Below, piece by piece: positions 5,508 through 61,097 of a stretch of 64,000 nt of DNA. The notes under the pieces were generated by a model. It worked only from the letters and a program-made list of their open reading frames with translations, was not told the DNA's origin and made no database searches. Location: the NCBI RefSeq assembly GCF_000003815.2, contig NC_049990.1, forward strand, positions 20,598,015 through 20,662,014. The letters run 5' to 3'. This DNA comes from Branchiostoma floridae (taxonomy: Eukaryota; Chordata; Leptocardii; Amphioxiformes; Branchiostomatidae). Numbering within the stretch: position 1 is the stretch's first letter; every line of letters starts with the position of its first letter. The translations under genes and the position numbers were made by a program.

Positions 5508-8342
5508 TCATTCGGTCAGTTGTTTTTCTATCCAGTCTGCCGTTCTTTGTCTACTCTGCTCCCATGCATATATCGGCGAGTATCCTAGGTCCTTTCTAGC
5601 TTTTGCACAGTTTAAGTAGAAAGTTGTATTACATGCCAGTAAAGGAGCTCTGCTCAAAGGAGGAACAAAGTTGCAAAAAGGTTTCAAAAGAAGTCGAAGA
5701 GACCCGAAAATACCGGCTATGAAGTAGAGAAGCCACAAAGGAAGGATCATTTTCTCGTGGATTTTGACATCAGGGCAGAGGTACTCAAAGAAATCTTGGT
5801 AATTAGTGATAGGTGTGTCGTCGTGAATATTATACACGCGACCACAGGCGATACCGTCGGGGGAAACTAGCTTGTCCGCCGCCAGGAGATGTGCAAGAGC
5901 TACGTTACCCACGTATGCCTGGCGAGCTTTCACGTCAGGAGATGAAATTCTAGTTCCAAGCTTCGAAAGTTTAACGAACGAAAGATCAAGCTTGCTCCCC
6001 TCCCCATAAATATGCGGGGGTCGCAATGCGCAAGTGCGAAGTTTGCCGCCATCTTTGGTCGTTCTTCCGTTGAACTCCAGCACCAGACTTTCGGCCGCCA
6101 TCTTGGATGTCCCGTAGGCTGAGGAAAGATGGGTGCGATCGTAAGGTGACTCTTCGACGCCATCTTCGAGTGGATCCCCTCTCCAATTGGGACCGAACGC
6201 ATCTACACTGCTTGTGTAGACGAGACACTTGACATCTGTTGCTAAGCAACAGTTGAGAAGGTTCTCTGTACCTTAGGAAAAATAAAGAAGAAAGAGGTGT
6301 CCTTAGTTAGAAAAATTGATATTGCTGCACTATTATCTGGAAAAAAACATAACACCTGACGAAAACAAATGGCGAAAACAGTGCTACTCTTTGGATATCA
6401 TTTTTTCTACCCATCCAACACCATTATACAATGCAACACCTTCTTCAAATACCTCTGGAAACGCCTGTGTATATAAATTGCTATGATTCCATATTTACTT
6501 AATTATTGTATCTATATATTCTTGAAGGAAGCTTGCAGGATGCAAGGCACAGTGGGAAAAGATCAAGAAAGAGTAAATGCAGTTATAGGACTTTCCGAAG
6601 ACTATAGATGCAGAATGCAGTAACTGATGCTGATATATTCTCTGTGCTGTACTGTATATCTTTACTCTTTACTATTCGTTGGTGCTTGAAATAAATAATT
6701 AACAAACGACATTAAAAGAAAACGTTGTGTCGCGATTATGACGTGCCCCGTCCCTAACGTAAAAGCTGTCATCAATGTACATTATATTCTAGCTATTTAT
6801 CTTTCCAACGTACAATCGACCGTCAATATACAGAAAAAGACCAAGCGGATCTACCAGTACCAAGATACTGTCAATGCTAATATCTAGCCAACCACTAAGT
6901 GTACAGGCCACTTTAAACCCTACTAACTACAGACATCATTCTGCGTGTCATCTTATTTACAGCTCTCATGATTGACAGCTTGTTACCTCTGACGTTGACA
7001 TCCCATAATTCCTCCTGAGTGAACGTGCCGTCCGGGACGTCAATCAGAGAGGCCGCGTGTATGATGACGTCAGCACCCGAGCAGATTTCTGACATTCGTT
7101 CTTTACTCCGGATGTCCGCTTCGTAGACGTGAACCTTTTCTGTTGATTTATATGTGATAAAATGCAAGATAAATGTTTCAAGATATCCGAAAATTGTTTC
7201 ATCAGGTTGGTAAAATATCGATGAAGTAGAATTCTTATTACACAACCAGATGGGTACGTACGTTACTTACGTTTCGATGTCTCTCAGACACCCTGGTCAG
7301 AGCTTTTGACTGGAGTTCTGCTTCTCATCGCTATAATTATGTAGCCGATGTAGGTGGCGCTTTTGCGGTGAGAAAACAGTCCCAAACGTGGCTACGCTTG
7401 TATCTCCCCTCGTCCCGCCTACATGTAGCAGTTAGAAGCTCTGACGAAGGTGTCTGAGAGACATCGAAACGTAGGCAATGTAAGTACCCACTGGTTGTGT
7501 AATAAGAATTCTACTTCATCCTTTTTATGATAATTGTATATCAAAACACAAACACTCACAACAAAACTTGTGATGTACTGCATTACGTTATGTACTAGTA
7601 TTTGACGTTTCTATAATTCTTTTATTTCTTTAGGTCATGCATAAATCTACGTTTTAGCGAATATATTGTCAAATTCACGCCTACTGTTTTTGTTATTAAC
7701 AGTTATTTATATCAATATCATTTATCATTGTAATACATCTGGTGTATTATTTGCAGCCAGTAGGTAACACCGATTCACCTTTATCCACAGGGTAACCTAT
7801 ATCCGTTGTTCCTAAAACAGGGCATTTAGGGAAATCAAGTCGGCGGACGGCGGTTTCAAACGGCGATATTTTTACAATGTTTTAGTTTAAAACCACTGCC
7901 CGTCGCTATCACGTAACACGCCTGTTTTTTAAACCTACGAATATAGGTTACCCCGCGGATAAAGGTGAACTAGCGTTACCCAATGTTTTGTAATGAGGCT
8001 GATTTACGTGCTCCAGGCACCTCCTCGAACACGGGACCCCCGTTTTATGTCCCATCTGAAAGACGATGATATCATTAATAATGATAATGATGATGATAAT
8101 AATGATAGCAACAGTTAGAATAATGATGATAATGTTAAGAATGCTATGATAATTCTAACATTTTTTTCAGCTCATGTACGAAGCTAAGAATCCTTACCAC
8201 AAGGAGTCACACATTCGTTGACGGTTTTATCCACCACCCGAAGTTCCCGGATGTGTTCATCCCTCTCCAAGAGCATGCGCACTAGATGTGACCCCAGGAA
8301 GCCACACCCACCAGTGATGACGTAGGTCAGGTTTGCTGGCAT
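5508..8342 (-). CDS. 3-beta-hydroxysteroid dehydrogenase/isomerase family protein
   Basis: Three coding exons on the minus strand, 8342-8198, 7139-6987 and 6271-5508, join in phase to 353 codons plus stop. The N terminus has a Rossmann NAD site (TGGCGFLG, residues 10-17) and VVDK at the end of beta-2, which fits NAD preference. The catalytic pair is YGTSK (Tyr152, Lys156), with YTSS upstream. [23 protein letters not shown] and YNIHDDTPI are typical of the HSD3B branch of extended SDRs. A hydrophobic segment ([20 protein letters not shown]) matches the membrane region of these ER/mitochondrial enzymes. The family oxidises 3-beta-hydroxysteroids or related sterol/bile-acid precursors; the exact substrate cannot be read. 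The protein is about 15-20 residues shorter than vertebrate HSD3B because little separates [13 protein letters not shown] from [10 protein letters not shown], so a small exon could have been missed in intron 1. Confidence 0.88.
7220..7520. mobile_element. Inverted-repeat MITE in intron 1 of the HSD3B-like gene
   Basis: The left end GATGAAGTAGAATTCTTATT (from about 7219, read on the + strand at the end of exon 2's intron) is matched in reverse complement at 7500-7520. Inside, TTTCGATGTCTCTCAGACACC on the left pairs with GTGTCTGAGAGACATCGAAA on the right. A related element lies at 22730-23020 and a half copy at 50258-50345. No coding capacity is seen. Confidence 0.75.
7755..7985. mobile_element. 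Palindromic MITE
   Basis: TTCACCTTTATCCACAGGG followed by TAACCTATAT on the left pairs with ATATAGGTTACCCCGCGGAT and AAAGGTGAA on the right. A diverged one-sided relative starts at about 11537 (TTCACCTTAATTCGTGGGG). It lies in intron 1 of the HSD3B-like gene. Confidence 0.65.
7990..8065 (-). repeat. Fragment of a tRNA-derived SINE tail
   Basis: CACGGGACCCCCGTTTTATG followed by TCCCATC resembles the minus-strand SINE tail at 21218-21245 (CACGGGACCTCCATTTAACG then TCCTATC). It is a short, diverged fragment. Confidence 0.4.
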
Positions 8343-16751: not shown

Positions 16752-19700
16752 TCATTTCGTGTCCGAAGAGGAGTTCAAGTTGTTAGATGGAGACGGTTGG
16801 GATGGACCGGGTGGAAGATGCAGTCCTGCAGGTGGACGCTGGGCGGCGCTTGGTCTCTGACTGTTACCCGATGGAGTAGCCTGTCTGCTACTTGCCTGGA
16901 CGTAGGGATCGACGTCACTCTCAGACGACATCGAGGAGGAGTTTAAGTTGTTACTTGGAGGCGGTCGTGTTCGCGATGGTCCGGGTGGAAGATGCAGTCC
17001 TGCAGGTGGACGCTGGGCGGCGCTTGGTCTCAGACCGGTACCCGATGGAGTACTGCTCACTCGGAGGTACGGATCGACGTCACTCTCAGACGACATCGAT
17101 GAGGAGTTCAAGTTGTTACCTGGAGGCGGTCGTGTTCGCGATGGTCCGGGTGGAAGATGCAGTCTTGCAGGTGGACGCTGGGCGGCGCTTGGTGTCAGAC
17201 TGGTACCCGATGGAGTACTGCTCGCTCGGAGGTACGGATCGACGTCACTCCCAGACGACATCGAGGAGGAAGAAGCTAGTGGGTTCTGCCATCCTCTCGG
17301 GCCTCCTGCGGCTTGTACGTACGGATCTATACTGCTGGTTGAAGAGCTTGAAGGAGAGTCCGGAGAGTTTTGGGCAGAACGAGGGACTGGTAGTGAACGC
17401 AAAGGGGCTGCAGACACCACATAAGGATCTATGGAGCTTCCTGACGACATGGATTGGGTAGGGGGTGAGGTTTCGCCCGGCCTTGGAAGAAATGCGCTCG
17501 GGGTTGGCAAGCCGGGTACACCCCTTTGCGTAGAGAGGTTGGGGGACGGTGCGACAGTGGTTTGTGGCTTTGCGTTAGACGTAAATCCTTGGTTGAATGT
17601 TGGTGCCAGTAGAGGAAGATTCTCCGCTAGAACATACGGGTTGGACTGATTTTTGCATCCTCCCACCTGGAAATCTTCGTCCACATCTTCTTCCAACGCA
17701 CCGTCGGTTGCGTGTACATAAGGGTCAATTTCGGCCGAGGACGTCGTGTGTGCAGTCTCCGGCCAGTTCTCTTCAGCCTCTTTGGAAGGGAGTGGACTAT
17801 CTGTGGACGCTCGTAGAAATGACTCGAGGAAATTTTTCTTCTTAGGTGACACCGGAGAATCCGTTGTGACCGGAAAGTTGGACGATTCGTCGGCACCGGA
17901 ATCCGTTATCAGAGAGGACGGACCGGAAACGTTTCCGGAATCCGTGCTGGTCGGAGATGACGGCTCATCTTCGTCTTCGCTCTTCTGCTGCGATATCACG
18001 ACTTTAACTACAAGATCCTTGTCTGACTTCCAGCTCAGCAATCTCTTCTTCTCGCTCGTAAAGGCGCCGTCGTCAAGGGATAAGTTGTCGGGAAGATTTT
18101 GAAGAGATTTGACCAATTTGCTCTTTTGGCGAATGAGTCTGGTACGAATGGTGTCGAGATCGTCCATGCTCTCTTTGCTTGATGAAGAAGAGATCGGCTC
18201 AAAAGCAGATCTGTCTTTGGTCTCTTTGATTTCAACCTGAAAATGAGAAGGCGTTGATAGATATGTGAGCCAATTTTATATGAGACTGGCTTGTAAGGCC
18301 TCCAATTGTTACAATTGATACAAGTCATTTCACAAGTTACTAGTAGTGTTCGTACGTGTATGTATGTCCATGAGTGTGTGTGCGTGTGCGTATCTGTGTC
18401 TGAGCATCTGTGTGTACGTGTGTGCATGTGTGCGTGTGTTTATCTGTCTGTGTCTGCGCCTATGTGTCTCTATATGAGTGTGCATTTGTGTGTATGCATA
18501 TACATAAAAAATTATACAACATTTAGTAGCCTTAAACCATCCTAGTCTCATGACAGCCAAGAGCAATCTATAAAAGAAATGTTACCACGTATAATGATAT
18601 TTTACTTCTCCTAGAAAAGTAGCCTGGCTGCCAGAACCCAGCCCGATACTAAAGATACCTATTGTGTTGGGTAGATACTTTTGAGATTGGGTTGGGGTCT
18701 GGTAGCCAGGTTACTAGAACAGCGCCACCTACCAGGACAGGAGGAAGTACAATGTTGATTTTGCTGATACTGAGGAAGGGGCTGCCACGCATCCACAGAA
18801 CCAGGAAACAGACAAGTACCAACAGGCACGCCACGGCAAGGATTGGCAGAACCGTCCGGACCAAGATGTGAGAATCTGTGAGGAAATAAGTATTGTGTTA
18901 TTTTCCAATAGATAATGTATCAATAAATATATAATCAGCCGAACTTTGGTAGAATTCCACTTGAGGTGAATAATTAAATACGCAAGGTGTGTTTGTAAAA
19001 CAATATGACACTCACTAAAAGTATGCAGGCCCTACGCATGCATTCCCTATGCGTGTAGACCTTCCTTTATCTTGAATATTTTCGGCATAAATGAGGGGCG
19101 CTAAGCACACCAAGAAGGTCAATTGTTCACAAGATATCAAAGAACACATGACAAGACGTGTTTTTCTTAGCGCCCCTGAATTGTTTTTGTAACCTAACCT
19201 AACCTAACCTAACTTTAAGTCATGCGTTGTCAAGCAGATTGTATTCAGCTAGAGGCTGAGATTGATTTATTTAATCAGAAGGTACTTAGGTAGTTTGTAC
19301 AAGACTGAGTGCTTTTTGATGCGCGTGGGCTAATGGGTACTTAAAGTAAAGTAGTATGCATTTGTCACTCCCTACAATTACTAGTAATATCTTTCGGAAG
19401 ATAACATTGCCTTCTGGAATGCCCTTTTAAGATGTTGCCTTACCAGCTTCTGAAGCCTCTGTCCGTGCATAGACTCCCGCACTTCTGGCACACTCTCCAA
19501 ACCCACGCACGTCAGCGGAGGGTAGTCGTGCCTTCACGCAGACATGGTACTCCTTCCCCGGCACCAGTCCTGTCAGGTTCACGGCGTTGACGGTGTCCAC
19601 ACTAACGGGCTCCACATCAGGGTCGTACTGCACCATGTACCCCTGTACACAGGCGTCCTCTAGCGGACTCCAGTTGACTTGCATGGACGTTGGTGACAAT

Positions 19701-22700
19701 GCCGCGGCGCTTACGTTTGGAGCATCGGGCGATGCATCTGGGGTTAAGACGGAAGAAAACAGCACATTTCACTCTAAAATCTAAATCTATAGGCCATTCA
19801 TCTAACGTTTAATATATATATATAGAGAGAGAGAGAGGGGGAGGGAGAGAAAGAAACAGACACAGAGAGAAAGAAAGGAAGAAAGAAACAAAGAAAGAAA
19901 GACCAAAGAAGGAAAGAAAGCACGCTAAAAACTAGAGTGATGTTAACCTTCAACAAATTAAACATGTCAAAAATATCCCGTCATTTCTCATTAATAATAA
20001 GTCCTTTTAATACCTGCTATTTGGAGCGATGGAACCCTCAGCATGTTGTGTTGAGCGGGTGGATCACTACATCCGGCGGAAGTGCACGCAGCCACGTCAA
20101 CAATGTACGCTTTGGATGCGGACAGGTCCCGAATGATGAAGTCGGTAACTTCCACCGGAACCAACGAATGTGTCATCTCTGTGCTGAAAGTCCCAACCTC
20201 CCTGTACCTGATTTTGTACGTCTGGAGTTCCCCATTCCAATTTTCTTCCGCTGGAGGCTGCAAAACGATAACAAGAAAATTTCCGACTAGGGCCTACGTC
20301 ACATTTTCTACCCGGGGCCCGGCCGGGCTGTTTGCGGGAACGAAAAAGTTTATGCCAATAGATATGTAACAAGACATGCTGTTTAATTATTTTTTGGTCC
20401 GTTCTGTGTTTTTTGCTGTCATTTAATATTTTACGTTTCGTTCCCTAAAACTGCCCGGCCGGGCCCCTTTGTGGAAATGTGACGTAAGCCTAAGAGATTT
20501 TCTTCTTCTCCTGTTTAGGCTTAGGTCACATTTCCAAAGAGGCGCCCGGCCGGGATGTTTTAAGAAACGAAAAATTAAACTGTATACCTAGAAATATACA
20601 CAGATCATTCTCATGAATCTTATTTTGTCATTTTTGTGTATTTTGATGTCTTTTATATCATTCTTTTCGCTCCCGAAAGCTTTCCGGCCTGGCCCCGCTT
20701 TGGAAATGTGACCTAAGCCTTACTTAAACTCAAGTTATTCTGGGTCAGACTTTTATTTCATGAAGGTCTAAAACTAGTAGCATGAAGGATGCATGCCAAA
20801 AGGAGATGACAGTGTAATATTCATTGATTATAGGGTCTTCTATCAATCCGTACCTGCCAGGTGAGTTGGATGTTCCTCAAAGGGTACCTGGTACAGTCAT
20901 CCACTCTGAAGGCCAGGAACCGGGCACCGGCGGAGGGAACTGGGGAGACAGAGAAGGGTTTCGTCTTTGGCATCGCATGCAGAAAACACGTCAGAAAGCC
21001 ATAAATGTACCAAGGAGGTTGAAAGCTTCAATTTGGCGGGGCTAAATCGCAAGTGTCTGGAGCGAGCTGCCATTCAGCGCCACTCAGGTGACCTCAATAC
21101 GACAGCAATTGCCCCAGGTGCGGCCAAGGTACTGTAGGTTTTGAACCACTCACACCGCACCATCGCACGTGTGGCGGGTTTTTTAACGTGCCTGGGGTAT
21201 GGCTCTCCCCAGACACGGGACCTCCATTTAACGTCCTATCCGAGGGACGGCCCTAGCCGAAGCTATATCTAGGTACTCATTTTTACCTGAGTAAAGTGAA
21301 GAAAGTCGTGTAGAGTGCCTTTCCCAAGGGCACAAGATCGGTAACACGGCAGCCGGATTCAAACCCGCGACCTCTCAGTACAGTCACGAGCCGAACACAT
21401 TGCCGCTACGCTACGCGGTCCCAAAGTAAGTGTGCAGCGCAAGAAAGTCAGTGTGTTGAGCAGAAAAAAATGGTTTGTTGAGCAGAAAAATAGGTGTTGC
21501 ACATTGTTGCTATCGGCCACGGTACTTTTAGTATACAAAAACGTGTTTTACCGTCCTCCTGTGTATCAGCGCATATCCGCCCTGTGTCTCCTATCTTCTC
21601 TATGTACCGGCCCCTCACGCTGATACAGTAGTGCTTCCCCGGGTAAAGGTTATTCAGCACAATGTCTTTCTCTGTGGTTTCTTTCTCCAGCTGTACACGT
21701 TGAAGAAAATTAAACGTCAGAAAATGTTTTGTTTTCTTTTTTCACAAAAAGAGAAACAGAAATAGACTGACATAAATTATGCAAATGTTAGTGAAATTTG
21801 CATAATTCTTGGAGGAAAAATCTTTCTACAAATGGACAGTGTACTGCTTAAAACATCTGTAATTTTAAAGAAAAATACACATACATCATACTGATTAGAA
21901 TCTCACGATGGAGAATGGTGGGCTAAGGAGTTGAGATTCCAAAGTAATTTCTTCTACTAAAGCTAATGGCAAGCCCGCCGTACGTGCGTTTTTGGGGGAG
22001 GCCACATCCGCCCCGTTTTTCTGAAAACGTTCAGGCTGTACGGGGCAGGCGTGTCGCCCGTACTGGCATGTACGGTGGGCGAATCCGCAGCCCGATGGCA
22101 CACAAAGTTTTGCCTCCACCAAGGAGGTTAAAAAAAACCTCCTTGCCTGAACGTAAAGTTCTACGGCGTGTTTGTGTGCTCCAAAATCCGTCGGATTCCC
22201 TACGAGTTCGTACTGAGGCGGTACTTATCACTTACGGATCCCAAAAGATTGCTCACGTTTTCGCACGTACGGCGGGTTGTGCCATTAGCTTTAGTAGAAG
22301 AAATTAGCATTTCAAGTCTAGCATTATTTAAATCAGGCCATCATTCTCATAGTTAATGGGACAAGCACAAGTGACGAAGGTATGAGGTCTACGAAGGCTT
22401 GTTATAGAATTTATCAGGTATGGTCACTTCTTGAGCAATGTTAAGACAACAGATATCGATTTTTTTTCTTTAAAAAAGAGTGGTACTTACATCAAGACTT
22501 GACCCGACTTCTCCATACGTTATCGTCCACTCGATCCTGCTGAAGATGCGTGACATGCGCATGCGTCGCCCGTTGTCGCTGTTATAGAAAGGGGTTTTCG
22601 GTGCCCGGATGCGGAGAGTCAGTCGGTCTGTCTTAGCTTGAAGGATGTCCAAATCTGGGGCACCTAGTTTTGCTGGAACGTTAAAAAATCATCCGTAAAT

Positions 22701-25700
22701 AACTTCATCAAGTTGGCAATTATTCATATAGTAAGGTTCTTTAGGCACAACCAGGAAGTACTTATTTCCAACATTTCGATGTCTGTCAGACACCATCATC
22801 AGGGTAGAATGGCTGGAACTACTTATTGCTGCTACAGAGACGAGGGGGGATACAGGCTGAGCCACGTTTGGGACGGTATTCTTGCTGCTGCAGCGCCACC
22901 TACATTGGCTATAAGTAGCAGCAAGAAGTAGTTTCCAGTCATTCTACACTGATGATGGTGGCTGATAGACATCGAAACGTTGGAAGTAACTACTCCTTGG
23001 TTGTGCCTAAAGAACCTTACTATATGTTTAAAAAGCTTGGTTAATACACAGTTAATCAGGAAGGCAACATTTTCGAGCAAATGCAAAATGTTTTCCCTGT
23101 AACCTTTTTTTGTCAAGATACCTGCGCACAAAACTTTACTATTCGGCTCACCTTTAGTACTAGCATTGTGTGCGAGTAAAAAGATAGAAATTTTGAAAAT
23201 TGTTCATATTTACATTGCATAGATAACATCCAATCTCAGCTCTGATTGGCTACTGACAAAAATAGAAGAAATGAAAAGACCACACCATCCAAAACAATAT
23301 GTTTTTTTTCTCTACAGGAAAAACATAAACATTTGTAAAGTACGCAAAGAATAGTGATATCTATCCATGCACGAAGCAATATACATGTTAACATTTTGTG
23401 CAAGTGGCACACGCCCTTGGACAGTAGCCAAAATGACTCCTAGTAAGACAAAGGAAAAAAATATTCAAATTATTTCAAACTCGATCCTAAAACTGCACTA
23501 CATTGACTTTTATCTTCTGACGCGTCGGCAAAAAAAATCCGAAATTTGTGTCTTTCACTCTGACTCAACAAAATACATCATGCACCAGCGGACTCAGTGT
23601 ACTGTGGTCTTAATAACTGAACCTTAGAAGTCTAAGAACATCAGTCTATTCTTAAGTAGGGATGTTCACAAAACGTTTCACCGAAACATATAGCGCACCC
23701 CGATCTTTGATGTAGCTCAATACACATACTTTATATCCCCTTTCCACTGCGACAGCGCTCTCGACGCACTCTCTCTGCGACATAGAATTTGACAGATCGC
23801 TCAACGAATTCTATAGAAAAGAAAGGAATGCTTTTACACTTTCTGTGTTCTCTTTTGTTCTCAGTCACACTTTTACGTTTTGTATGATATACCCAGTGTG
23901 AAAGCGAAGGATACACATACTCCTATTTAGGTCGCAGTGAGAGCGCAGTGCGATCACCGTCTAGTGGAAAGGGGGAAGCAGAACAAACGTTAACTAACGT
24001 AAAAGTGATATTCAAATCTGAGCCAAGCATTATGCAAAGCTGTTCCTATTAAATCAATCAATCAATGATCACTTACGTCTATCTATCTAGACTTACTATC
24101 TAGACTTACTATCTTCAAACGGTTCGAAGACTGTAGTCTCTGCCCAGTCGCTGGTACCGTAAGAGTTGAGAGCCCGTACACGTGCCCACCAGTTCCCGTC
24201 TGTCCCCAGCTCGGAGAGAAGCACGCAGCACACCGCCGTGATGTTGATACACTTCGCCTTCTCCTGCCAGTCTTCCGGGGACGGGAATGATTCCCGATGT
24301 CCCGCTCTAAAGATTCAATCACGACAAAACTAGCGTTAGAGTACGAAAGCCCATAGCGACGGGTGTGTAGTCTCCAGGCTTCCGGGGACGGGAATGATTC
24401 CCGATGTCCCGCACTGAAGATTCAATCACAACAAAACTAGCGTTAGAGTACGAAAGCCCATAGCGACGGGTGTGTAGTCTCCAGGCTTCCGGGGACGGGG
24501 ATGATTCCCGATGTCCCGCTCTAAAGATTCAATCACAACAAACTAGCTTTAGAGTACGAAAGCTCATAGCGACGGGTGTGTAGTCTCTGGGCAGACATGT
24601 CAACTGTACTAAGAAAGAGAAGAATTTGGCCAAATAGGGACAAATACGTTACTCTTGTTTTCAGTCAGTCTTTTGCAGTGTATCCAGCTCCCGTGTAATC
24701 TCGAACCAGATCCACGGTGCGTTATGTATAGTATCAAACTCCCGTTTGACTCCCTTAGCCGGCTATAGTCCCTGGCCAGCTTTGATACTATCTTATGGCA
24801 CCGTAGGATCTGCTTGGAGATTACTCCCGTGGCCGAAAAGTTCACTCCTAGGCCAATTAAATCGAACTAGACTTTTTTTTTTCCTAACTTGGCCAAATTC
24901 CCCTACTACTATTTGACCAGGCCGGAGACTAAAACGTGTGTATGAAGTATGTAAGCACAGCACACGCTGGTGTACGCATTGTGTGAGCAGTACAAACGCT
25001 AGTGTGAAGTTGTTTTTAGTCCGGTATTTTCGAAGTGCATAAAGTGACGGTAGTGTGGTAGCTTGATTTCAGTTGACACAGAATTCAGAATTGTGGCGTA
25101 ACTGGTAGAGTGTTGGGCTCGAGACCTAGAGGTCCTGAGTTCGTACTCGCCGTGCCCCGGACATTGCGTCCTCGGGAAAGGCACTAAACACGACCTTCCT
25201 GACTTCAACCAGGTGTAAAAATGGGTACCTGGCAGTACAACCTTTACCTGCTGTATGTACTTTGTACTTTGTGTATGTCACTGTTAAAATAAGTTGCTAC
25301 TTGTGTGCAGTACCGTTAGAGGTATAAAAGATTACAGGTAGAAAAGTTTATTTTTATTCAGGCCACAGCAAGTTAATTTCATGGATGATATCATGACGTT
25401 TATTTGCCTGTTAAAAACACAAGAAATTGTGTTCCCTCTAGAGATAGTCAACATGCTTTAGATAAAAGGGCTATACTAACACAGATATAAGACTGACAAA
25501 AGTGTCTTCTCAACAAGGGGTGTTAAAACAGAATTCGAATTGATGTCGACTGAGCACTGCATATTTATCACATTATTTTAGTTCAAAAAAGTGTTTCTGT
25601 CGAAAACCGTGTTAACAAGTTCACACGCGATAATGGTTGACACAATGATATCACAGTAATAAATCATTTTCACTATTAACTATCTTTATACTCTTAGTTA

Positions 25701-28305
25701 TTAGTGAAATAACGAGATAGAGGGGTGCTATCATATTCTTTCACTAATAGACTAATCTTTCTTTCTTTCTCATAAAATAATGTGATAGAGGGGTGCTATC
25801 ACATTATTTCACTAATAGATACAATCTGAACTTCTCTTACTAGTAAAATAATGGGATAAAAAGGTGCTATCATAATATTTCCCTAAAAGATACAATCTTA
25901 ACTTCTTTTACTAGTAAAATAATGGGATAAAGGGGTGCTATGACATTATTTCACTAATCGATAGAATCTTAACTTCTCTGTCGACTGTTTGTCACCTTAG
26001 AGCGAATTTTAATTCCAACTACACACTTTGTTGTCGTTGTCGATATGTAAGTAACTTGTTCGACAATTGATCTGAAAGGACTGACCAAAATAACACATTC
26101 AAAGACAAAGTATTCAGGCTACCACTCGCACCCGTACGCGTGTTGTTTTCAGTACTGTCCTAAAACGTACTGTTGGCATTGTGAAGTCACTGTAGAAAGT
26201 TCTTTTGTGTGTGCCAAAGTCAATACCAGAAACTGTACAAATTGTATTTTGCCTTTTTGGTTCCTCAGCAACCGCCCACTGGTACAACGTATTCGTACAC
26301 ACTTGCTTAGGCCAACCGTCAATTTTTCTCTCACAGAGGTACTACCCCAGAACATTAACAATGCTACAGTAAACATTACATCAGATCCCTGGCGTGTAGA
26401 ATCTAAGACCATACTTCCTTCTTTGCGCCAAGCGGCGGCTTTTGTCAAGGTCTCAGTGTTTTATATTCTACTTGGTTAACGTTACTAACAAAAGGTCCAA
26501 TGTTGTTTTGAGGAACCTGTAGTCTTTCTTGTGCTCAGCTTTGATTGTAATTGTACAGCTACAAGTCCACAACTACCCGTTTTTCTGCTTCGTGTGACAC
26601 GAAAAGGCATTTTTCTCACGACTCACACAAGTTGCCAAGAGAGTTCAGTCATAACATAAGCAGGATAATGTTGAATAGAAAATAAACAAGTTTTCCAATG
26701 ACATATAATGCAGTGCAGTTGCCAATGTCTTCACGGAGATATACTGACAGAAATCAAGTTTTCTAAACTTTTCGTGTTGAGTTTATAGATATTGAAAATC
26801 AACTTACCCGATGTACTGTACTGTAAACATAGTCGAGTTGTCGTGGTTTGGCGCTAGATCCCATCGTAGCGTGTGGTTAAAATTGACGGACTCGAATCTC
26901 ACGTTGATAGGCTTGTCGGGTGGTCCTGACAACGATAAACGATATCGATTTTGGTTCACGTCACATTCCCAATCCGGGGCCCAGCCGGACAGCTTTCGGG
27001 AACGAGAAGTATGATATAAATGACACCAAACTACACAAGACGTAAAGAGAATAGTCGTGGGCATTATTTGTATATATGTCACAGTAGAGATGTCGATCCA
27101 GTAGAATCGTCGATTCTCCTAGGAGAGATTGCGATCGGAGCTGGTCCTAGGGCCAGCTCCGATCGGGGTCTCTCCTAGGAGAATCGACTATTCTACTAGT
27201 ATAGATTGCGATCGGGGTCTCTCCTAGGGCCAACTCCGATCCAAACTCATATGATACTAAGATATGGGAAACAGACTGCGATCGGGATCTCTCCTAGGAG
27301 AATCGGTGATTCTACTAGGAGAGACCCCGATCGCAGTCGGTTTCCCATATCTTAGTATCATATGAGTTTGGATCGGAGTTGGCCCTAGGAGAGACCCCGA
27401 TCGCTATCTAGTATTGCTGTTTCCTATATCTTAGTATCATTTGAGTTTGAATCGGATCTGGTCCTAGGGCCAACTCCGATCGGGGTCTCTCCTAGGAGAC
27501 TCGACGATTCTACTGGATCGACATCTCTACTGTGACAGATATTTTTACATATAAATGATTTCTATTTTTCGTTTCCACAAACAGTCCGAATGGGCCCAGG
27601 TTAGCCTTACCGGGTCATTCTTGCCAGGCGTGCGGTCAGAGGGTAAAAAATCTCCGCCCACTCACTACTTATATAGTCAATCATTAATGTATATACATGT
27701 ATCATGGTATCCTATGGTGTTTGTATATGTTATAAATTGTTTGTAAGTGTATTAAAAAAAGACATTTTCTCAGTTAGGATTCAAGTGTTTCTCGCAAGCA
27801 GATTCAACACTGCAACAGATATTGCTTGACCACACCGTCGTTTTAATGATGTGTCGCAGAAGGTGTATACGCAACTTAATATCACTCAATTTACTTCCTA
27901 CTCAAGACTGTTAGGTCAGGCGTGTTATAGACTGTAAGAGTTCAGAACTAAAGTATAAGAAACTTGTCTAAGAGTCTGTGTAGAGTAGTGGTAGTCCCTT
28001 ATATAATAGCTGTAACTATAAAAACTCACGGAAGTAATTATAATCTCGACCAACGGTGGAATCTAATTTTAGAACACTTGTCGGGATTGTAGTACTACTT
28101 GTGCTTTTAGCGGCAAGAAAAGATCTGAAATCACAAATACATATCGATACTTGAAAGTGTTGATGTTATATGATTGTACAAGTAAACTTGACAAAGTCTT
28201 ACCTTGCAATGAAAACCCTGAACTATCGTCGGCAGTTGTGAGAACGTCGTCAATTGTCGTACTACAGAAGACAAGCGCGATCAGAAGAACCCACGCAGCC
28301 GCCAT
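16752..28305 (-). CDS. Class II cytokine receptor-like protein with two added FN3 domains and a repeat-rich tail
   Basis: Ten exons on the minus strand (28305-28203, 26925-26808, 24306-24110, 22672-22491, 21690-21552, 20939-20854, 20257-20014, 19737-19444, 18875-18733, 18236-16752) join in phase to 996 codons plus TGA. Exon 1 encodes a signal peptide. Exons 2-3 give D1: FESVNFNHTLRW, two cysteines around residues 93-101, WWARVRALNSYGTSDWAE and VFEPFED. Exons 4-5 give D2: KLGAPDLDI, RIFSRIEWTITYGEVG and HYCISVRGRY...GRIC (Cys222/Cys240). These are hallmarks of the interferon/IL-10 receptor family. Exons 6-7 and exon 8 add two FN3 domains (LTWQPPAEENWNG; MQVNWSPLEDACVQGY). Exon 9 holds a transmembrane helix (about 463-482) and box1-like INIVLPPVL. 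The 495-residue tail has seven tyrosines (675, 703, 774, 808, 837, 892, 947), all in (D/N)PY(V/L). A JAK/STAT surface receptor is inferred; the ligand is unknown. Class I (gp130-like) ancestry is the main alternative. Confidence 0.8.
16768..17265 (-). repeat. Coding tandem repeat in the receptor tail (three 55-residue units)
   Basis: Three units of 165-168 bases lie inside the last exon of the receptor gene. Each encodes SSMSS..SDVDPY(L/V), then TPSG, PSAAQRPPA, LHLPPGPS and NNLN. Tyr837, Tyr892 and Tyr947 are spaced exactly 55 residues apart. Earlier, non-repeat copies of the (D/N)PY core stand alone upstream. Confidence 0.9.
18365..18500. repeat. TG-rich low-complexity stretch
   Basis: Degenerate (TG)n/(GTGC)n with interruptions, located in the intron just upstream of the last receptor exon. 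The open frames on both strands are artefacts of its composition. Confidence 0.85.
18615..18715. mobile_element. Short hairpin element
   Basis: GTAGCCTGGCTGCCAGAACC then CAGCCCGATA on the left pairs with GATTGGGTTGGGGTCTGGTA then GCCAGGTTAC on the right. It sits 18 bases downstream of the receptor transmembrane exon. Confidence 0.6.
19810..19925. repeat. (TA)n/(GA)n/(GAAA)n simple repeat
   Basis: A purine-rich run of GA and GAAA units in the intron between receptor exons 7 and 8. Confidence 0.9.
20290..20490. mobile_element. GGCCCGG-type inverted-repeat element, copy 3
   Basis: GGGGCCCGGCCGGGCTGTTT and GGGAACGAAAA on the left mirror TTTCGTTCCCTAAAACTGCC then CGGCCGGGCCC on the right, with outer CACATTTTC / GAAATGTGACGT. 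It lies 33 bases from the 5' border of receptor exon 7. Confidence 0.75.
20512..20730. mobile_element. GGCCCGG-type inverted-repeat element, copy 4
   Basis: GTTTAGGCTTAGGTCACATT then GGCGCCCGGCCGGGATGTTT on the left mirrors AAGCTTTCCGGCCTGGCCCC then TGGAAATGTGACCTAAGCCT on the right. It lies in tandem with copy 3, about 20 bases apart. Confidence 0.75.
21050..21425 (-). mobile_element. tRNA-derived SINE, minus strand
   Basis: Read on the minus strand from about 21422, a tRNA-like head (A-box region GTAGCGTAGCGGCAATGTG, B-box GGTTTGAATCC) is followed by CCCTTGGGAAAGGCACT, ACTCAGGTAAAAATGAGTAC, GGATAGGACGTTAAATGGAG and CGTGTCTGGGGAGAGCCATA. The same body recurs at 48458, 52650 and 53690. This is the longest copy in the window. 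Confidence 0.8.
21936..22325. mobile_element. GCCGTACGTG-type MITE, copy 2, with long terminal inverted repeats
   Basis: TTCTTCTACTAAAGCTAATG then GCCCGCCGTACGTGCG at the left is the reverse complement of CGCACGTACGGCGGG...CATTAGCTTTAGTAGAAGAA at the right, about 40 bases. The copy at 8816-9125 lacks these outer ends. Confidence 0.8.
22730..23025. mobile_element. Inverted-repeat MITE related to 7220-7520
   Basis: AAGGTTCTTTAGGCACAACC at the left is the reverse complement of GGTTGTGCCTAAAGAACCTT at the right. Inside, CATTTCGATGTCTGTCAGAC pairs with a CATCGAAACGTTGG block. It lies in the intron upstream of receptor exon 4. Confidence 0.8.
24274..24594. repeat. Threefold 107-base tandem repeat including a receptor exon edge
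   Basis: TCCGGGGACGGG(A/G)ATGATTC starts at 24274, 24381 and 24488 (period 107). The first unit contains the 5' end of receptor exon 3 and its acceptor (CTTTAG on the minus strand at 24307-24312). The other two are near-identical intronic copies upstream in transcription, so the acceptor and first coding bases are present three times. Confidence 0.85.
25090..25260 (+). mobile_element. tRNA-derived SINE head, plus strand
   Basis: GTGGCGTAACTGGTAGAGTG resembles a tRNA A-box region and GAGTTCGTACTC a degenerate B-box. The SINE body piece CGGGAAAGGCACTAAACACG and a short GGTGTAAAAATGGGTACCT block follow. The tail is truncated. Confidence 0.65.
25690..25975. repeat. Minisatellite, about 75-80-base unit, four copies
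   Basis: Each unit contains (T)AAAATAATGGGATAAA or a variant, GGGGTGCTATCA, TTATTTCACTAATAGAT and CAATCTTAACTTCT. Units are internally semi-palindromic (GTGAAATAA..TTATTTCAC). Confidence 0.8.
26950..27605. mobile_element. GGCCCGG-type element, copy 5, split by another element
   Basis: The left half (TTCACGTCACATTCCCAATC, GGGGCCCAGCCGGACAGC, TTTCGGGAACGAGAAG) lies at 26955-27080. The right half (TTTTTCGTTTCCACAAACAG, TCCGAATGGGCCCAGG) lies at 27560-27602. The hairpin element at 27078-27537 interrupts it. Confidence 0.65.
27078..27537. mobile_element. Large self-complementary element nested in copy 5
   Basis: GTCACAGTAGAGATGTCGAT then CCAGTAGAATCGTCGA on the left is the reverse complement of TCGACGATTCTACTGG then ATCGACATCTCTACTGTGAC on the right. 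Inside, blocks such as ACTCATATGATACTAAGATA then TGGGAAAC recur in reverse complement, and GGTCTCTCCTAGG modules occur many times in both directions. Most of its 460 bases can fold on themselves. Confidence 0.8.
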
Positions 28306-36078: not shown

Positions 36079-37417
36079 TTATTCTGTGGAGTTGCCTAAG
36101 CTTATGTATACGGGGACTTTCAGGTTGGTAATTTACAGACCTTTCACGTATGAAAAACCGACGTGACACACGTCATATGTTCAGCAGACGTCACCCAATA
36201 TCTATACAATGACTGCGTCATCGGGTGCCTATTCGACCTTTGACCCGTAGTCAGCTGCTCGAACTTTACGTGAACCTGGACTCGTCGTGCAGAGATATCG
36301 GTTTGTGCGTTTCTTTGTCGTTTTCTTTGAGCCTGTTGATTTTTGTCCTGCACAGACTCTATTGCACAAGTGTTCAGAATATTGACTGGGCTCACGCTAA
36401 CGTGAATATAACTTACAGAGTGGCCGGGGCTCGAAATACTGTCTGCATGTGAACCCAAAATTGGAGCTGTGTACACAATTATTTTCTGTGGATGCACAGG
36501 GTGCATCCAAATATTTTCTTAGGTTTATGTATGTAAAGATATCAAAGTATACTAGTATACATCATATTCTTGACATCTAAGTATTAGAAAGATAATAAGA
36601 TAATAAAATTGTCTGTCATGGTACTTGTTTAAGCTTTTGATAGCTTGTTTGTAACTAAGTTTATTAAGTTATTAATTTGGTGCACCCAATTATTTAAGTA
36701 ATCTCTAAAATGAATTTCGAGCCCTGCTTATCTATACATAAGTAAGAGTGATATCAGACACCCCGAGCCCAAAAATGCATTTAGCTTTGACGGGTGCGTT
36801 TTTATAGTTGACTAAGGCTTAGGGAAGTAAGTTTAACCAAGGACGCTGATATAACGTCCTTGGTTTAACTGTTACTGTTTTCCTATGTGTCCTCTATTAG
36901 TTTTGTGATTCCGATGATCATCTTTGACATATTACCAAGAATTACTGATAAGGTTTTAATGCAAATTCATGCCTATGGGGCTCAATTCCAGATGAACAAA
37001 ATCAAATACATGAAGTGATTAAAAATAGGTAAATAATCATATGAAGCTTAACTGATTGTATGTATATACTGAATATAGCACTACTATAGCGGGGTTTGAC
37101 TTCTTTGAAAACAGTTAACAATGAAATATCCCACATTTTCTATCATGATAGATTGATTCAGTGATCTTAACAGGAAGTGTGTCTTTTGTGTTTTTTTTTA
37201 GCAATGAAAAGTTTGGTATGATTTCAGACACTCTTTCGAATAGTGTGTTTCTTTCAGCATCGAATCGGGGACATTCAGAGATGAACATTGTGAATCATTT
37301 TCCACGGCATTTGTGGGCCAATGATTAATACAAAATCTGTCGCTCAGTATATGCATACTCGGAACTGTGAAGGTGCTTCACATGTACGTGGCAATGACTT
37401 ACCTAATTTGTTCCAGG
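36079..37417. other. Stretch before the first oxygenase, no gene recognised
   Basis: AT-rich sequence with no homology that I can read. A splice acceptor (TTTGTTCCAG, ending at 37416) abuts the start codon of the next gene, so a 5' untranslated exon may lie somewhere here. Confidence 0.5.
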
Positions 37418-40400
37418 ATGGACACGCAGGAACATGGGCCCATCCCCATCAATTGGGATGCTGATCTAGAGGACCACAGAACCAGCCACATCCCCATCCT
37501 AGACTTCTCCTCCTACAGCCTACTGAAGGGAGCTGTGGATGAGGATGAGCTGCAGCCGCTGGCTACACAGCTGGTCCAGGCTTTCTCCACTGTGGGGTTT
37601 GTTTACCTGTGTAACCACGGGATACCCGCAGCTCTGGTGAGGACATGTTTCAGAGATCATCATCATACCTGTGTGAAATATTTAACGTTTTCTCGAAATA
37701 TGTTGTTTGATTGTACAGTAGAAGCCAGTTAATTGCACAATGGATAATTGCACACTTCATTTAATTGCACAAAATCCTAAAATCCTGTGGTGGTGCGGTC
37801 CAGCTTAATTGTTTTGTTGTACAATTCGGATAAGTCCACTACATCCACTGGCAAATGGGGTGTGCAATTAAGCAGCTTCTACTGTATCTCATCAGATATG
37901 TAAATGAGGTCACAATTAGCATATGCCATAAGTCCATTGAATGTCTCCTCCACCCAAGATACAGATAATTATGTTGCAATCCTTTGACAGGAAGCTGTTA
38001 TAACGTTTCTTCAGTAATTATGCAAATGACATCTCTATTTACATAATGTGGTGATATTCACCTTTAATTGAATGATAAATGCCACAAGTAGGAAATTACA
38101 TGTATCATTGTGGAATCTATGGAATTATTAGTATTTTTTATCAATGATGCAAATGAGGGTTGAATTTAGCAGGGAAAGACAATTGTAGTATTCAAAGTAC
38201 AGGGAAAAAATTTTTAAACATGAAACAAAATTTTCCAGTCTTGCTAAGTAACCATTTTCTACTGTCACATTGCTTTGCAGGTCTCCAGGACTTTTGAGAT
38301 AGCAGACAAGTTCTTTGCCTTACCGGAAGAAGTGAAGACGAAGTTCTCCCGACCCCCAGACAAGAGCCATGGATGGGTGTGCTTGGAGAGAGAACGGTAT
38401 CTGGAGATTATGCTTTGTGCTGTCTTTGCTTGTACTCTCAAAGCAGAGGTTATGCTTGGGCTGTTTTTTTATGTTTTTGTTGGCGTTTTTATCGTTCTTT
38501 CTATTTTGTACCATTTTGTTGATATCTCGCTGCCTAAAAACCATAAAAAAACAGCCGGAGCCTAACCTCTGTCTGGAGAGTAGTCTTTTGTATCATTATG
38601 ACTTGGGTTAATTATCTGGCAATGTTTAACTATGTAAGGATATAAAAAAAAGAATGTGGCATCACGTAACGGTAGGATGCTTGGTTCAAAGCCCAGAGGT
38701 CCTGGGTTAGAGTTCCCTGATTTGCATCAACATTGTACCCCAGGGAAAGGCACTTTACACAAATCTCTTCACTTCTCTCAAGGAGGTTTTGACCTCCTTG
38801 CTTCACTCAGGTGAAAATGGGATGTCCCTTGAATAGGATGGCACATTATGACATATGACCACTTAAGATGAGACTGGGTATGTTTTGTTGGCTACAATCA
38901 TTGACCATCAATTTCTAATGCAATTGTAGAATGGGTAAGAACTTCAACCATAATGCATATTGACCTGACTTCTACTTTGTGTTGTTTCTGTAAAAACTTG
39001 CAGAAAAAAATTCAATGCTGCAAGTGAATTTTAAAAGCTTTTGTTTGTTTCTATACACTACAGGGTGACCATGGAAAGGCCTGGGGACCTAAAAGAAGCT
39101 TTTAATGTGAGGCCTCCACATGCCACAGAAAAGGTATTTCCTTTTGACATAACTCAATAGTTATCATATTAATACTAGCTTTATGCTTTTATTTTAGTGA
39201 ACCCTTTTATGACCATATGTATCGTAATACTCTCCTTGGCCATAGCACCCCCATGAAACTCCTTTTCCGCCGTACCCTAAAAATCTCGCCGTACCCGCTG
39301 AAAAATCTCGCCGTACCCGCTAGGCTCCGCTGTACCCGCTAAAAAACATCGCCGTACCCTAAAAATCTCGCCGTACCCGTCCCTATCCGCCGTACAGAAC
39401 AGCCGACACCGCTCGGCCACAGGGCATACTCACACGAAAGTCGCATCTAAAAGCCCTTCACGGCAATGATGCACGGTCTCACATAGCCTCATGCTCTGGG
39501 AAACATTCCTGGCCACCTCTCTGCCCAGTGGCGTTGTACAAATCGCGCCCAATATTGAGAGCACTTCGGAAAACTGTGGTGAGAAGCGGTCTGTAGAGAA
39601 GCAGAGATCCCGCGTAACCCGGAAGTGACAATCGTCTGTGGTGATAAGTTTGATGTTAAAAAAAAAAAAAAAAAAAAAGCCAGCCGGCACCTAACCTCTG
39701 CTTGGAAAGTAGCACAAACATGCAATTTGTACACAATCGCAGATATTCCATTATCAGTTCAGTCACCCTCACACCTGAGTCACCACCACAAATGAGTGCA
39801 GATAGAGATCCCCACCACCAGTAAATACATATGACTCTCCCACCACCAGTGAACACATGTGAAGATCCCCAACACTATTGAACAAAGGTGAAGATCCCCC
39901 AACACCAGTGATAAATATGAAGATCCCCCAACACCAGTGAAGACATGTGAAGATCCACCACCACCAGTGAACACAGGTGAAGATCCCCCAACACCAGTTA
40001 ATATTCAGTAATGAAGATCCCCCAACACCAGCAAATATTCAGTAACATATCGGATCCCCCAACACCAGTGAACACAGGTGAAGATCCACCACCACCAGTG
40101 AACACAGGTGAAGATCCCCCAACACCAGTAAATATTCAGTAACATATGAAGACCCCCCAACACCAGTAAATATTCAGTAACATATGAAGACCCCCCAACA
40201 CCAGTAAATATTCAGTAACATATGAAGATCCCCCAACACCAGTGAAGGCATGTGAAGATCCACCACCACCAGTGAATACAGGTGAAGATCCCTCACAGCA
40301 TACAGAAGGCCAGAACAGTTCTAAGTGCAAAATTTACAGATGAGCTTTCTTTATTCATTTGCTTCTGTACAATTGTATTGTACAATACATTTGTATTGAG

Positions 40401-57555: not shown

Positions 57556-60500
57556 ATGGTAGTGAAGGCGTCCCTGGTGTTTGTGGTAGCGGTGGTACTC
57601 CTGACGTACTACTGTCACGAGCCTGTACCGCCAGACGTCCCACAGCCGACCATGTTCGCAGCCATGGCGATAGTCATGAGAACAGCACGACACATGGTAA
57701 GGTGTGGTCCGCTGAGATGATGAGTGCAATCCTGTATGTCCATCACAATTAGTAGTTCAACCAATCAGAGAATTGGAATGGTTGTTTTGGCTAATAGGAG
57801 AGTCAGGCAGCCTGTCCGTCAAATTCCTTTTTGTATTTGCATTTTTGTATTTTTGTTCAAAATCTTGTTTCTTTTCCTACATACTGTCAGAGAGTGAAAC
57901 TCGATGTCACAAAGTACAGTAAGAATATCCTCAAAGATAGCTTTATTTGCTTGCAGCTAGGCATGTAAAGGTTAGGTGTGACAGTGTCAGCTTGAATGTT
58001 CCGTGAAATATAACCAGCTGCTGCCTTGCCATATGGATGCAATGCTGGAGTGTTATGCTGAAGGGTGGTTATACTTACTCTCCAAGCAGAGGTTAGGCTC
58101 CGGCTGTTTTTTTAAACGTTTTTTTTAGTCGTTTTATCGGGCTTTCTATTTTGTATTCTATCTTGCTGTGTCAGGCTGGCGTACTTCAAGAAAAATGACA
58201 AAATAGAAAGCCCGATAAAACGACTAAAAAAAAAGTTAAAAAACAGCCGGAGCCTCTGCTTGGAGAGTAGGTTATACTGGCTATACAGATTCAGATACAA
58301 AAGCTGGTGTATTATGCTTACTTACTTGTTACTTGATATTTCTGAGGTCTTACGGGCTATTATCAAAGCTACACAGATGCAAATACAGCTATAGAAGCTG
58401 GTGTGTTACACTGAAGGACAGTGTCATACAGGCTAAACAGATACAAATACAGACCTCAGATTGACTCTTAGATTTTAATATTTGTTTTCTTTGCTTTCCA
58501 GGCCAATATCGGAGAGTACCTGGGCATAGGCACTGAGCCTACGAACCTACGGTACATCCTCTGGGCACTGACAAGAGCGGGCCAGAAAGTGATGACGCTG
58601 GGCACAGCATACCGAGAGGGACTGGAGTGTACAGACACCGTGTTTGACGGAGTCAGCGTCCGTGTGTACGAACCGGTGTCAGCGGCGAAGAGTAACGTCA
58701 AAGTCCCCGGCCTGGTGTTCATCCATGGAGGGGGCTTTGTTCTCCTGAATGTCGGTAAGCCATGGATCGAGTCCAGGGTACTCTACAAGTAGTCGGTGTA
58801 ACACAAACTCTGCTGTCCAGGACTGTAGAATGAGGGTCAGTATGGGGGGTCCCGACAACGATTTACGCTGAATTCAGAAGAACCCCCTACTAAGGGTCAG
58901 GGTACCGGTACAGAAAATTCAGGTCCGATTCAGGTCCAAAGCATCAGATCCAGGTTTGAACCTGAACCTGGACCTGATTCAATATGTGAGAACTTGTGAA
59001 TGGACGATACTCATAACAATGGTCCATTTGGCAACAAAGACATAATGTTTTGTGGATCATTCGAATCCCACTGGCATTTTAAAATCCTACAATGCTAACT
59101 GCCTCTGTACTATTGACTGTAAAAGTTGGTAGAAATGACTATAGACTATACTTCACTCTCGTTATTTTCCTCGACCGGTAAGCCCCGAAACATGTGAATG
59201 CCTGATCAGATAATCTGTTCATTTTCAATCGGTCCAACATCCGGTCCACCAAATTTTTTCAGGTCCAGTTTTTCTGGACCGGTCCAAAAAGAATAACCGG
59301 TTTTGTACCAGCCCTACCCCCTTCATATTACGCTAAATCAAGGAAGGCAATTTAATACGCTAAATTTGGTCGCCTCGCTATGAATTACGTCTACACAGAT
59401 AAGTTGGTTTTCCCTACGAATTACGGGAAATAAAGATAGGCTGCGTACGCCTTGCGTAAAAGAGCATGCAGACCCTCTAGAATGATGAAAAGGCCCCCTT
59501 TTTTAAGGCAAGGCTAAGCATGGTCTTCCAAACAATGAGTGGGGTGAAAAGTGAATTTCAAAGTATGGAGATAGTCTTGATTGATTGAGTCTTAATGCCT
59601 GAGACAATGTTTTGCACAATGATTGCTTGAAGAGGAAGTTTTGTTTTTATCATCTCTGTGTTTCCTAGTCTTGAAGCAAATGATGTGGGTTAACTTAGTT
59701 CTGCTTTTTTTTCACATGACCACAACATTTGATTTGTTCACAGATACGTTTGATGAGCTGACAGCCCATCTTGCCAAAGAGCTGGGGATCGTTGTTGTAT
59801 CTGTGGAGTAAGTACTTTTCAGTGCAAAGGATTTTTCGTTGTTGACAACTTTTAATGTACCAGTCAATCAAGTATTGGAATGCTGCACGTAAGAGAGACA
59901 CATCTAGTTGCACTGGTGTTATTCAACTTACTTGTACTTTGGACCAAAGTAGTAGATTCAAATTTTTACTTCTGTGAAGGAGGGTCACCTCCTGATGAAG
60001 TATTTTGGTTGGTCATGTTTGTACGTTCGCAGCTATATCTTAATGCCTTCACTGTATTCGTATGAGACTCTGGCTAATGAATCCTACACTACTGCCTAGG
60101 TTACTGTAAAAGCAGAAATGTTCATGGTGCTTTTATATATGTTCACAGTTTTTTCGAAGCTGCTTCACCGTAATGCAAAGTGTGTGGTGCTACAGCAAAC
60201 TCAAAACCACTCTGAACACTCCATTTTTCCACTCCCACAAAATCTAATCCCTGCAAACTAAAATGCATTTACTGTATCTTGGTGTAAAAAAGTGGAAAAC
60301 TGCTCACTTTTGCAATGCTTAACCACAGGTATCGACTCGCTCCTGAGCACATGTTTCCGGCAGCGTTTGACGACAGCGTTGCTGCTACAAAGTTCTTCCT
60401 CCAGAACGCAGACAAGTACAACGTTGATCGCACACGTATCGGCATCAGTGGGGACAGCGCAGGGGGCAACCTGGCCGCAGCCGTCACTCTCGCTTTAGCG

Positions 60501-61097
60501 AAGGAAAAGGGACTTCCTAAGCTAAAGACACAAGCACTCATGTACCCAGTCTTACAAGCCATAGACTTCAACACACCCTCCTACCTTGACAACGGTTACA
60601 TGAACATTCTAAGCAAAGATTTAATGGTATCATTTTGGCTGTGGTATCTAAACAATGACGTGTCTTTCAAGGAAGTATTCCAAGCCAACAATCACACAAG
60701 TGGTCAGCTCAAGAGGTCTCAGTACGCGGGGTATGTAGATCACAAAATGGTGCGGCCAAACCTGAGACCAAAAGTCGTTACACCTGTTAAGAAGGAAAGT
60801 ATAAAATTTCCTGAGATTCCAAACATCGCGACCATTTTGGATCCACGTTTCGCCCCGTTAATGGCCGACGACGCTGATTTGGAAGGTCTCCCCCCGGCGT
60901 ACATAATGACGTGCGAGTACGATGTATTGAGGGATGATGGCGTAATGTATGCCACCAGACTTCAGAAGGCTGGGGTTAGGGTTGAACACGATCATTACGA
61001 ACGCGGGTTCCACGCATTTTTATCACAGTTCCGCGTCAATGAGTTAGCAGGCACAGCTATGGACAACTTGCTTGCATATCTGAGGAAAAATCTCTGA
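57556..61097 (+). CDS. Arylacetamide deacetylase-like membrane esterase
   Basis: Exons 57556-57696, 58502-58754, 59744-59807 and 60329-61097 join in phase to 408 codons plus TGA, close to the usual 400 or so of this family. The N terminus is a single hydrophobic anchor (VVKASLVFVVAVVLLTYY), as in type II ER-lumenal AADAC proteins. IHGGGF (residues 121-126) forms the oxyanion hole of the hormone-sensitive-lipase group. The nucleophile is Ser196 in GDSAGG, the acid Asp351 in EYDVLRDDG and the base His381 in RGFHAFL. SVEYRLAPEHMFPAAFDD is a family signature split by the last intron. The family hydrolyses acyl esters and amides of lipids or xenobiotics; the substrate here is unknown. A TTTTTTTACAAACAG acceptor-like stretch abuts the ATG, suggesting a spliced 5' leader. 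Confidence 0.92.
58077..58269. mobile_element. CTCCAAGCAGAGG-type MITE, best-preserved copy
   Basis: TACTCTCCAAGCAGAGGTTA then GGCTCCGGCTGTTTTTTTAA, TTAGTCGTTTTATCGGGCTT and TCTATTTTGT on the left are all matched in reverse complement on the right. The 190 bases fold into one hairpin. It lies in intron 1 of the esterase. Other members are at 1233-1285 (half), 15805-15970, 38436-38583 and 39670-39712 (half). Confidence 0.85.
58905..59320. mobile_element. CAGGTCC-type element, copy 2 (uninterrupted)
   Basis: It starts GGTACCGGTACAGAAAATTC and ends AACCGGTTTTGTACCAGC. It is collinear with 14484-15010 but has a single GTCCAACATC and no 92-base insert. It lies in intron 2 of the esterase. Confidence 0.75.
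60100..60277. mobile_element. TTCGCGG-type MITE, copy 4, CpG-decayed
   Basis: The outline of the family remains (TACTGTAAAAGCAGAAATGT at the left, CAAACTAAAATGCATTTACT then GTATC at the right), but the usual TTCGCGGTGG has become TTCATGGTGC and ACCGCGAA has become TGCAAA or GAACAC. It lies in intron 3 of the esterase. Confidence 0.65.

Follow-up and report, generated by a model that had tools for sequence, protein, structure and literature searches.

We examined a 64,000-nucleotide stretch of the Branchiostoma floridae genome (NC_049990.1, positions 20,598,015-20,662,014), referred to here as the window. Its minus strand carried a gene, designated gene A, which probably encodes a cytokine receptor chain of class II (interferon/IL-10 type) whose ectodomain is extended. 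As predicted from genomic DNA, gene A had 10 coding exons between an ATG at 28305 and a stop at 16752, and encoded a putative single-pass receptor of 996 amino acids (aa). All nine introns were of the GT-AG type, their phases were compatible throughout (1-2-1-0-1-0-1-1-0), and GC content was 0.542 in coding sequence and 0.407 in introns. The interval 18733..28305, to which the gene had been assigned in an initial annotation of this DNA, ran from the ATG to the end of exon 9 and left out exon 10, which encodes the cytoplasmic tail.

Exons 2-5 had been described in the initial annotation as a class II D1-D2 pair. The motifs quoted there were present, and both domains were above the curated Pfam cut-offs: D1 (aa 36-128) matched Tissue_fac (expect value (E) 2.1e-18, 66.6 bits, cut-off 27) and D2 (aa 140-227) matched Interfer-bind (E 1.7e-10, 41.5 bits, cut-off 21). 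None of the nine Pfam families listed for the A protein at E<=1 was a class I receptor family, and no Ig domain was found in it by Pfam. Class II receptors have a late cysteine pair in D1 and a YC...C pair in D2; both pairs were found in A (C93 and C100/101; C222 and C240) and also in two paralogs, genes B and C, which are described below. Class I receptors are defined, in a passage of PMC1963337, by the pattern C-X9-10-C-X-W-X26-32-C-X10-15-C in D1 and by WSXWS in D2, and neither motif was found in A, B or C. The initial annotation came with a suggestion to compare D1-D2 with receptors of both classes; made here by sequence, this comparison came out on the class II side. When D1-D2 of A was compared with the sequences of solved structures (E<=1), 28 of 37 matches were class II receptors or tissue factor, with IL-20Ra at the top (6.7e-16) and IFNAR1 among the best; the other nine were fibronectin, Dscam or designed FN3 chains, and none was class I. 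For B (E<=0.5), 26 of 45 matches were class II, 19 were generic or designed FN3 and none was class I, and for C, 14 of 15 were class II or tissue factor, the remaining match being a receptor phosphatase. With one profile built from all three proteins (E<=10, best 60 of 82 matches), the first 49, and 51 overall, were class II or tissue factor; among those listed, IL-2Rb (0.053) was the sole chain of class I. Placement of D1-D2 in class I was rejected on these matches.

Two further FN3 domains were present between D1-D2 and the membrane, as had been proposed. The whole A protein matched fn3 in two stretches (3.8e-27), and the two domains, FN3-3 and FN3-4, were also matched singly (Table 1). The observation of a class II D1-D2 followed by FN3 domains is therefore confirmed, as far as sequence can tell. 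Neither stalk domain matched class II Pfam models at E<=0.5, and because of this the stalk does not look like an IFNAR1-style second D200. The stalk was also compared with solved structures, taking the best 60 of 111 matches for the single-sequence stalk query, 60 of 110 for the FN3-3 profile and, in a third list, 60 of 171. Among the matches listed, the nearest relatives were receptor phosphatases, contactins, fibronectin, Dscam and titin. For example, the FN3-3 profile gave RPTP-delta at 2.6e-16, and reached LIFR at 2.1e-6, IL-12Rb2 at 1e-4 and gp130 at 1.6e-4; the single-sequence query reached IL-27 subunit beta at 0.0035. The description of the stalk as gp130-like therefore holds for its layout and not for its sequence, because phosphatase, contactin, titin and fibronectin FN3 domains scored best, with gp130-family chains far below RPTP-delta among the matches listed. 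Nor does the predicted stalk appear peculiar to gene A, as both paralogs had at least one such domain.

Intron phases provided a separate view of the same structure. Vertebrate class II receptors have the phase series 1-2-1-0-1-0 (as given in a passage of PMC8863823), and gene A without exons 6-8 showed this series exactly, the comparison being one of phases. Gene B without its exons 6-7 also showed the vertebrate series. The phases of gene C (2-1-1-0) did not follow it, apart from the phase-1 boundary that separates D2 from FN3-3; the phase argument therefore rests on A and B, as C lacks vertebrate-like introns inside D1 and D2. The membrane exon of A likewise had class II phases, 1 to 0. On these exon borders, gene A has the form of a class II receptor whose FN3 exons lie between two phase-1 introns, and does not read as a class I/class II hybrid.

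The membrane helix in exon 9 was strong (mean hydropathy 3.26) and was followed by INIVLPPVL, in which LPPVL is presumably Box1-like, judging from its likeness to known class II Box1 sequences; gene B had LPSIL at the corresponding place. All seven tyrosines of the 494-aa tail were in [DN]PY[VL] sites, partly multiplied by a 165-bp (base pair) tandem repeat, and the tail of gene C had SGYVLA-type sites.

Table 1. Exons of gene A and the tandem repeat of its tail (window coordinates)
Feature	Coordinates	Strand	Content	End phase	Basis or match
Exon 1	28203..28305	-	ATG and putative signal peptide, aa 1-35	1	Hydrophobic N terminus
Exon 2	26808..26925	-	Class II D1, first half	2	Tissue_fac, aa 36-128
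Exon 3	24110..24306	-	D1, second half: C93-C100/101, SDW, FEPFEDT	1	
Exon 4	22491..22672	-	Class II D2, first half, KLGAP start	0	Interfer-bind, aa 140-227
Exon 5	21552..21690	-	D2, second half, YC...C pair (C222, C240)	1	
Exon 6	20854..20939	-	Stalk FN3-3, first half	0	fn3 4.1e-10 for FN3-3
Exon 7	20014..20257	-	FN3-3, second half (ACTSAGC)	1	
Exon 8	19444..19737	-	Whole stalk FN3-4, phase-1 intron on either side		fn3 3.8e-12
Exon 9	18733..18875	-	Transmembrane helix (VLPILAVACLLVLVCFLVL) and Box1-like LPPVL	0	
Exon 10	16752..18236	-	Cytoplasmic tail, 494 aa and stop		
165-bp tandem repeat, 3.1 copies	16764..17270	-	Inside tail exon; serine-rich DPY unit repeated		

Several other features were observed in and around gene A. 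A 107-bp tandem repeat in three copies (24267..24587) carried the acceptor of intron 2 together with roughly the first 35 bases of exon 3; its two copies upstream of the real exon 3 start contained truncated exon starts and could be decoy splice acceptors. A tRNA-Thr-like match within intron 5 (21343-21421) is probably a tRNA-derived short interspersed element and not a tRNA gene. In intron 1, the region 27080-27530 was rich in palindromes, with repeated units like CTAGGAGAGA and CGATCGGA, part of which was listed by TRF (Tandem Repeats Finder). Elsewhere in the window we found a partial gene of the 3-beta-hydroxysteroid dehydrogenase family (5508-6272, minus strand; 3Beta_HSD 7.4e-46), a 2-oxoglutarate/iron dioxygenase-like exon (37325-37732, plus strand; DIOX_N 1e-8) and an alpha/beta hydrolase exon (60288-61097, plus strand; Abhydrolase_3 2.1e-47).

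A search of the genome (513.4 Mb, 431 contigs) yielded two predicted paralogs of the same build, unlinked and new here, with two extra domains in C and one in B. The stalk domains of A, B and C corresponded position by position, the further domain of B having been placed by its similarity to A and C. In Pfam, D1 and D2 scored 57.4 and 34.0 bits in B, and 27.5 and 29.1 bits in C (cut-offs 27 and 21). FN3-4 of C matched fn3 (5.4e-14) and, weakly, Interfer-bind (8.1e-5, 23.3 bits, cut-off 21). Exon 1 of B was not found in the search. Because the same domain order occurred at two unlinked loci, an artefact of the gene model at the join of exons 5 and 6 is less likely, which is no substitute for a transcript. 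Three other candidate class II loci were dropped: C17:13313203 consisted of Ig and FN3 frames, and C11:7198847 and C18:17098329 of FN3 repeats. Weak matches were also seen at C11:3338994, C7:19807589 and C1:26745240 (E 1.5-5.4) and at C8:4006559 (E 1.85, with four stops inside). Besides, the Box1 segment of B (CTCCCGAGCATTTTG), which lies in the membrane exon, occurred twice more downstream (G000:C12:5990780, 5990971 and 5991631), again a case in which sequence at a splice border was duplicated locally.

Taken together, gene A most likely encodes a cytokine receptor that has a tall ectodomain and is coupled to JAK-STAT. D1-D2 would bind a helical cytokine, and the FN3-3/FN3-4 stalk would lift and orient this head, like the stalks of tall class I receptors. 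Ligand would bring two chains together, the Box1-like INIVLPPVL would carry JAK, and phosphorylated [DN]PY[VL] sites would recruit the SH2 domains of STAT. With regard to origin, FN3 exons bounded by phase-1 introns may have come to lie after D2 and before the membrane exon; FN3-3, common to the three paralogs, would be the older, and FN3-4, common to A and C, may have been gained before A and C split or lost in B. We also consider, tentatively and as the less probable course, that the tall form is ancestral, in which case the class II D1-D2 of the chordate ancestor stood on an FN3 stalk, as in Domeless/gp130-type receptors, and vertebrates lost the phase-1-bounded FN3 exons to give short receptors.

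Several observations weigh against this interpretation. D1 of C cleared the Tissue_fac cut-off by only half a bit, D2 of B matched plain fn3 (1.8e-8) about as well as Interfer-bind (3.9e-8), and the stalk domain of B was unrecognised by Pfam fn3, its best match being ChitinaseA_N (0.069, under the cut-off). Gene C had no vertebrate-like introns inside D1 or D2, and its D1/D2 intron was of phase 2. As for signalling, no YxxQ (STAT3-type) motif was found in the tail of A, and no clear LPxxL followed the membrane segment of C. Genome searches with a JAK profile and for the IL-10 family gave no match; these do not show absence, because both were also silent in 14 of 14 control genomes. With STAT_int, nine genome matches were obtained at E<=0.1. 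Two of them exceeded the cut-off, and one of these two was interrupted by a stop codon; among the 14 control genomes, one bacterium also matched below the cut-off.

Other explanations were weighed against the same evidence. That the protein is a decoy or adhesion receptor, with a class II fold and no cytokine signalling, as in tissue factor, seems unlikely; interferons are reported, in a passage of PMC5752451, not to have been identified in the B. floridae genome, and the stalk resembles those of adhesion proteins, but the Box1-like LPPVL (LPSIL in B) and the long tail with its seven repeated tyrosine sites suggest signalling. The hybrid proposed in the initial annotation, in which a class II head was joined to a stalk from a gp130-type class I receptor, was left unsupported by sequence and appears improbable: no class I Pfam family or class I motif was found and the stalk was not closest to gp130. 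Such a hybrid would account for the order of head, FN3 domains and membrane, and for the reach of the FN3-3 profile to LIFR, IL-12Rb2 and gp130 and of the stalk query to IL-27 subunit beta, but RPTP-delta, contactins, titin and fibronectin scored far better among the matches listed, and the membrane exon has the phases of class II.

Among vertebrate class II receptors, IFNAR1 has four domains of the D1-D2 kind. Its place among the top D1-D2 matches, together with the weak Interfer-bind match in FN3-4 of C, would suit a receptor built of two D200 units, of which the second has diverged beyond recognition. This we regard as very improbable; a second D200 in the stalk was rejected, as FN3-3 and FN3-4 of A match fn3 and not the class II models. 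It is also very improbable that two neighbouring genes were misjoined, one for a short class II receptor (exons 1-5), the other for a membrane protein with FN3 domains (exons 6-10). The junction of exons 5 and 6 was read from genomic DNA only, and Pfam did not recognise the stalk domain of B, both of which would agree with a misjoining; such a chimeric model was rejected on the exon borders and phases of A and the matching structure of B and C. Read-through of exon 5 might give a short secreted form, since its frame (21451-21741) stays open past the donor for about 30 residues before a stop.

The reading of A as a tall class II receptor bears on the history of the family. A passage of PMC3210801 (2011) gives one apparent class II receptor each in Ciona and B. 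floridae (GI 260796075). The latter may be any one of A, B and C; the present analysis found three loci versus one there, and the passage does not give its build. In the parts of the open-licence literature covered, which fall short of the full literature, no class II receptor was found described as having an FN3 stalk. A passage of PMC8218723 places the origin of the interferon system in early jawed vertebrates, yet the B. floridae genome has at least three loci for class II receptors that share an unusual predicted build, and interferons are reported not to have been identified there (PMC5752451). Genes A, B and C therefore provide material for testing the roles of such receptors before interferon, whether the short form seen in vertebrates is a derived one, and the kinship of class I and class II; a tall amphioxus receptor may help to show the pre-vertebrate state of these immune receptors.

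Of the systems already described, the single-D200 class II receptors of vertebrates (IL-20Ra, IL-10Rb, IL-22Ra1 and IFN-gamma R1) resemble A in D1-D2 sequence, cysteine layout and the F.PF.DT..G.P linker, in the phases 1-2-1-0-1 and then 0, and in a single membrane helix; A differs in its two extra FN3 domains, its 494-aa tail and its repeated [DN]PY[VL] sites. An ectodomain of D1-D2 only was thus not what we found, with two fn3 domains added in A and C and one domain in B. This rule was not taken as defining class II, because IFNAR1 breaks it too. IFNAR1 also belongs to class II, and its ectodomain has four FN3-fold units; its extra pair is a second D200, whereas that of A is predicted to be two ordinary fn3 domains. 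The gp130/Domeless-type class I receptors share with A a ligand-binding head on an FN3 stalk, Box1 and a tail with tyrosines (layout as in a passage of PMC1963337), but A is without the class I cysteine motif, WSXWS and a Pfam-detected Ig domain, and its stalk sequence is not specially close to theirs.
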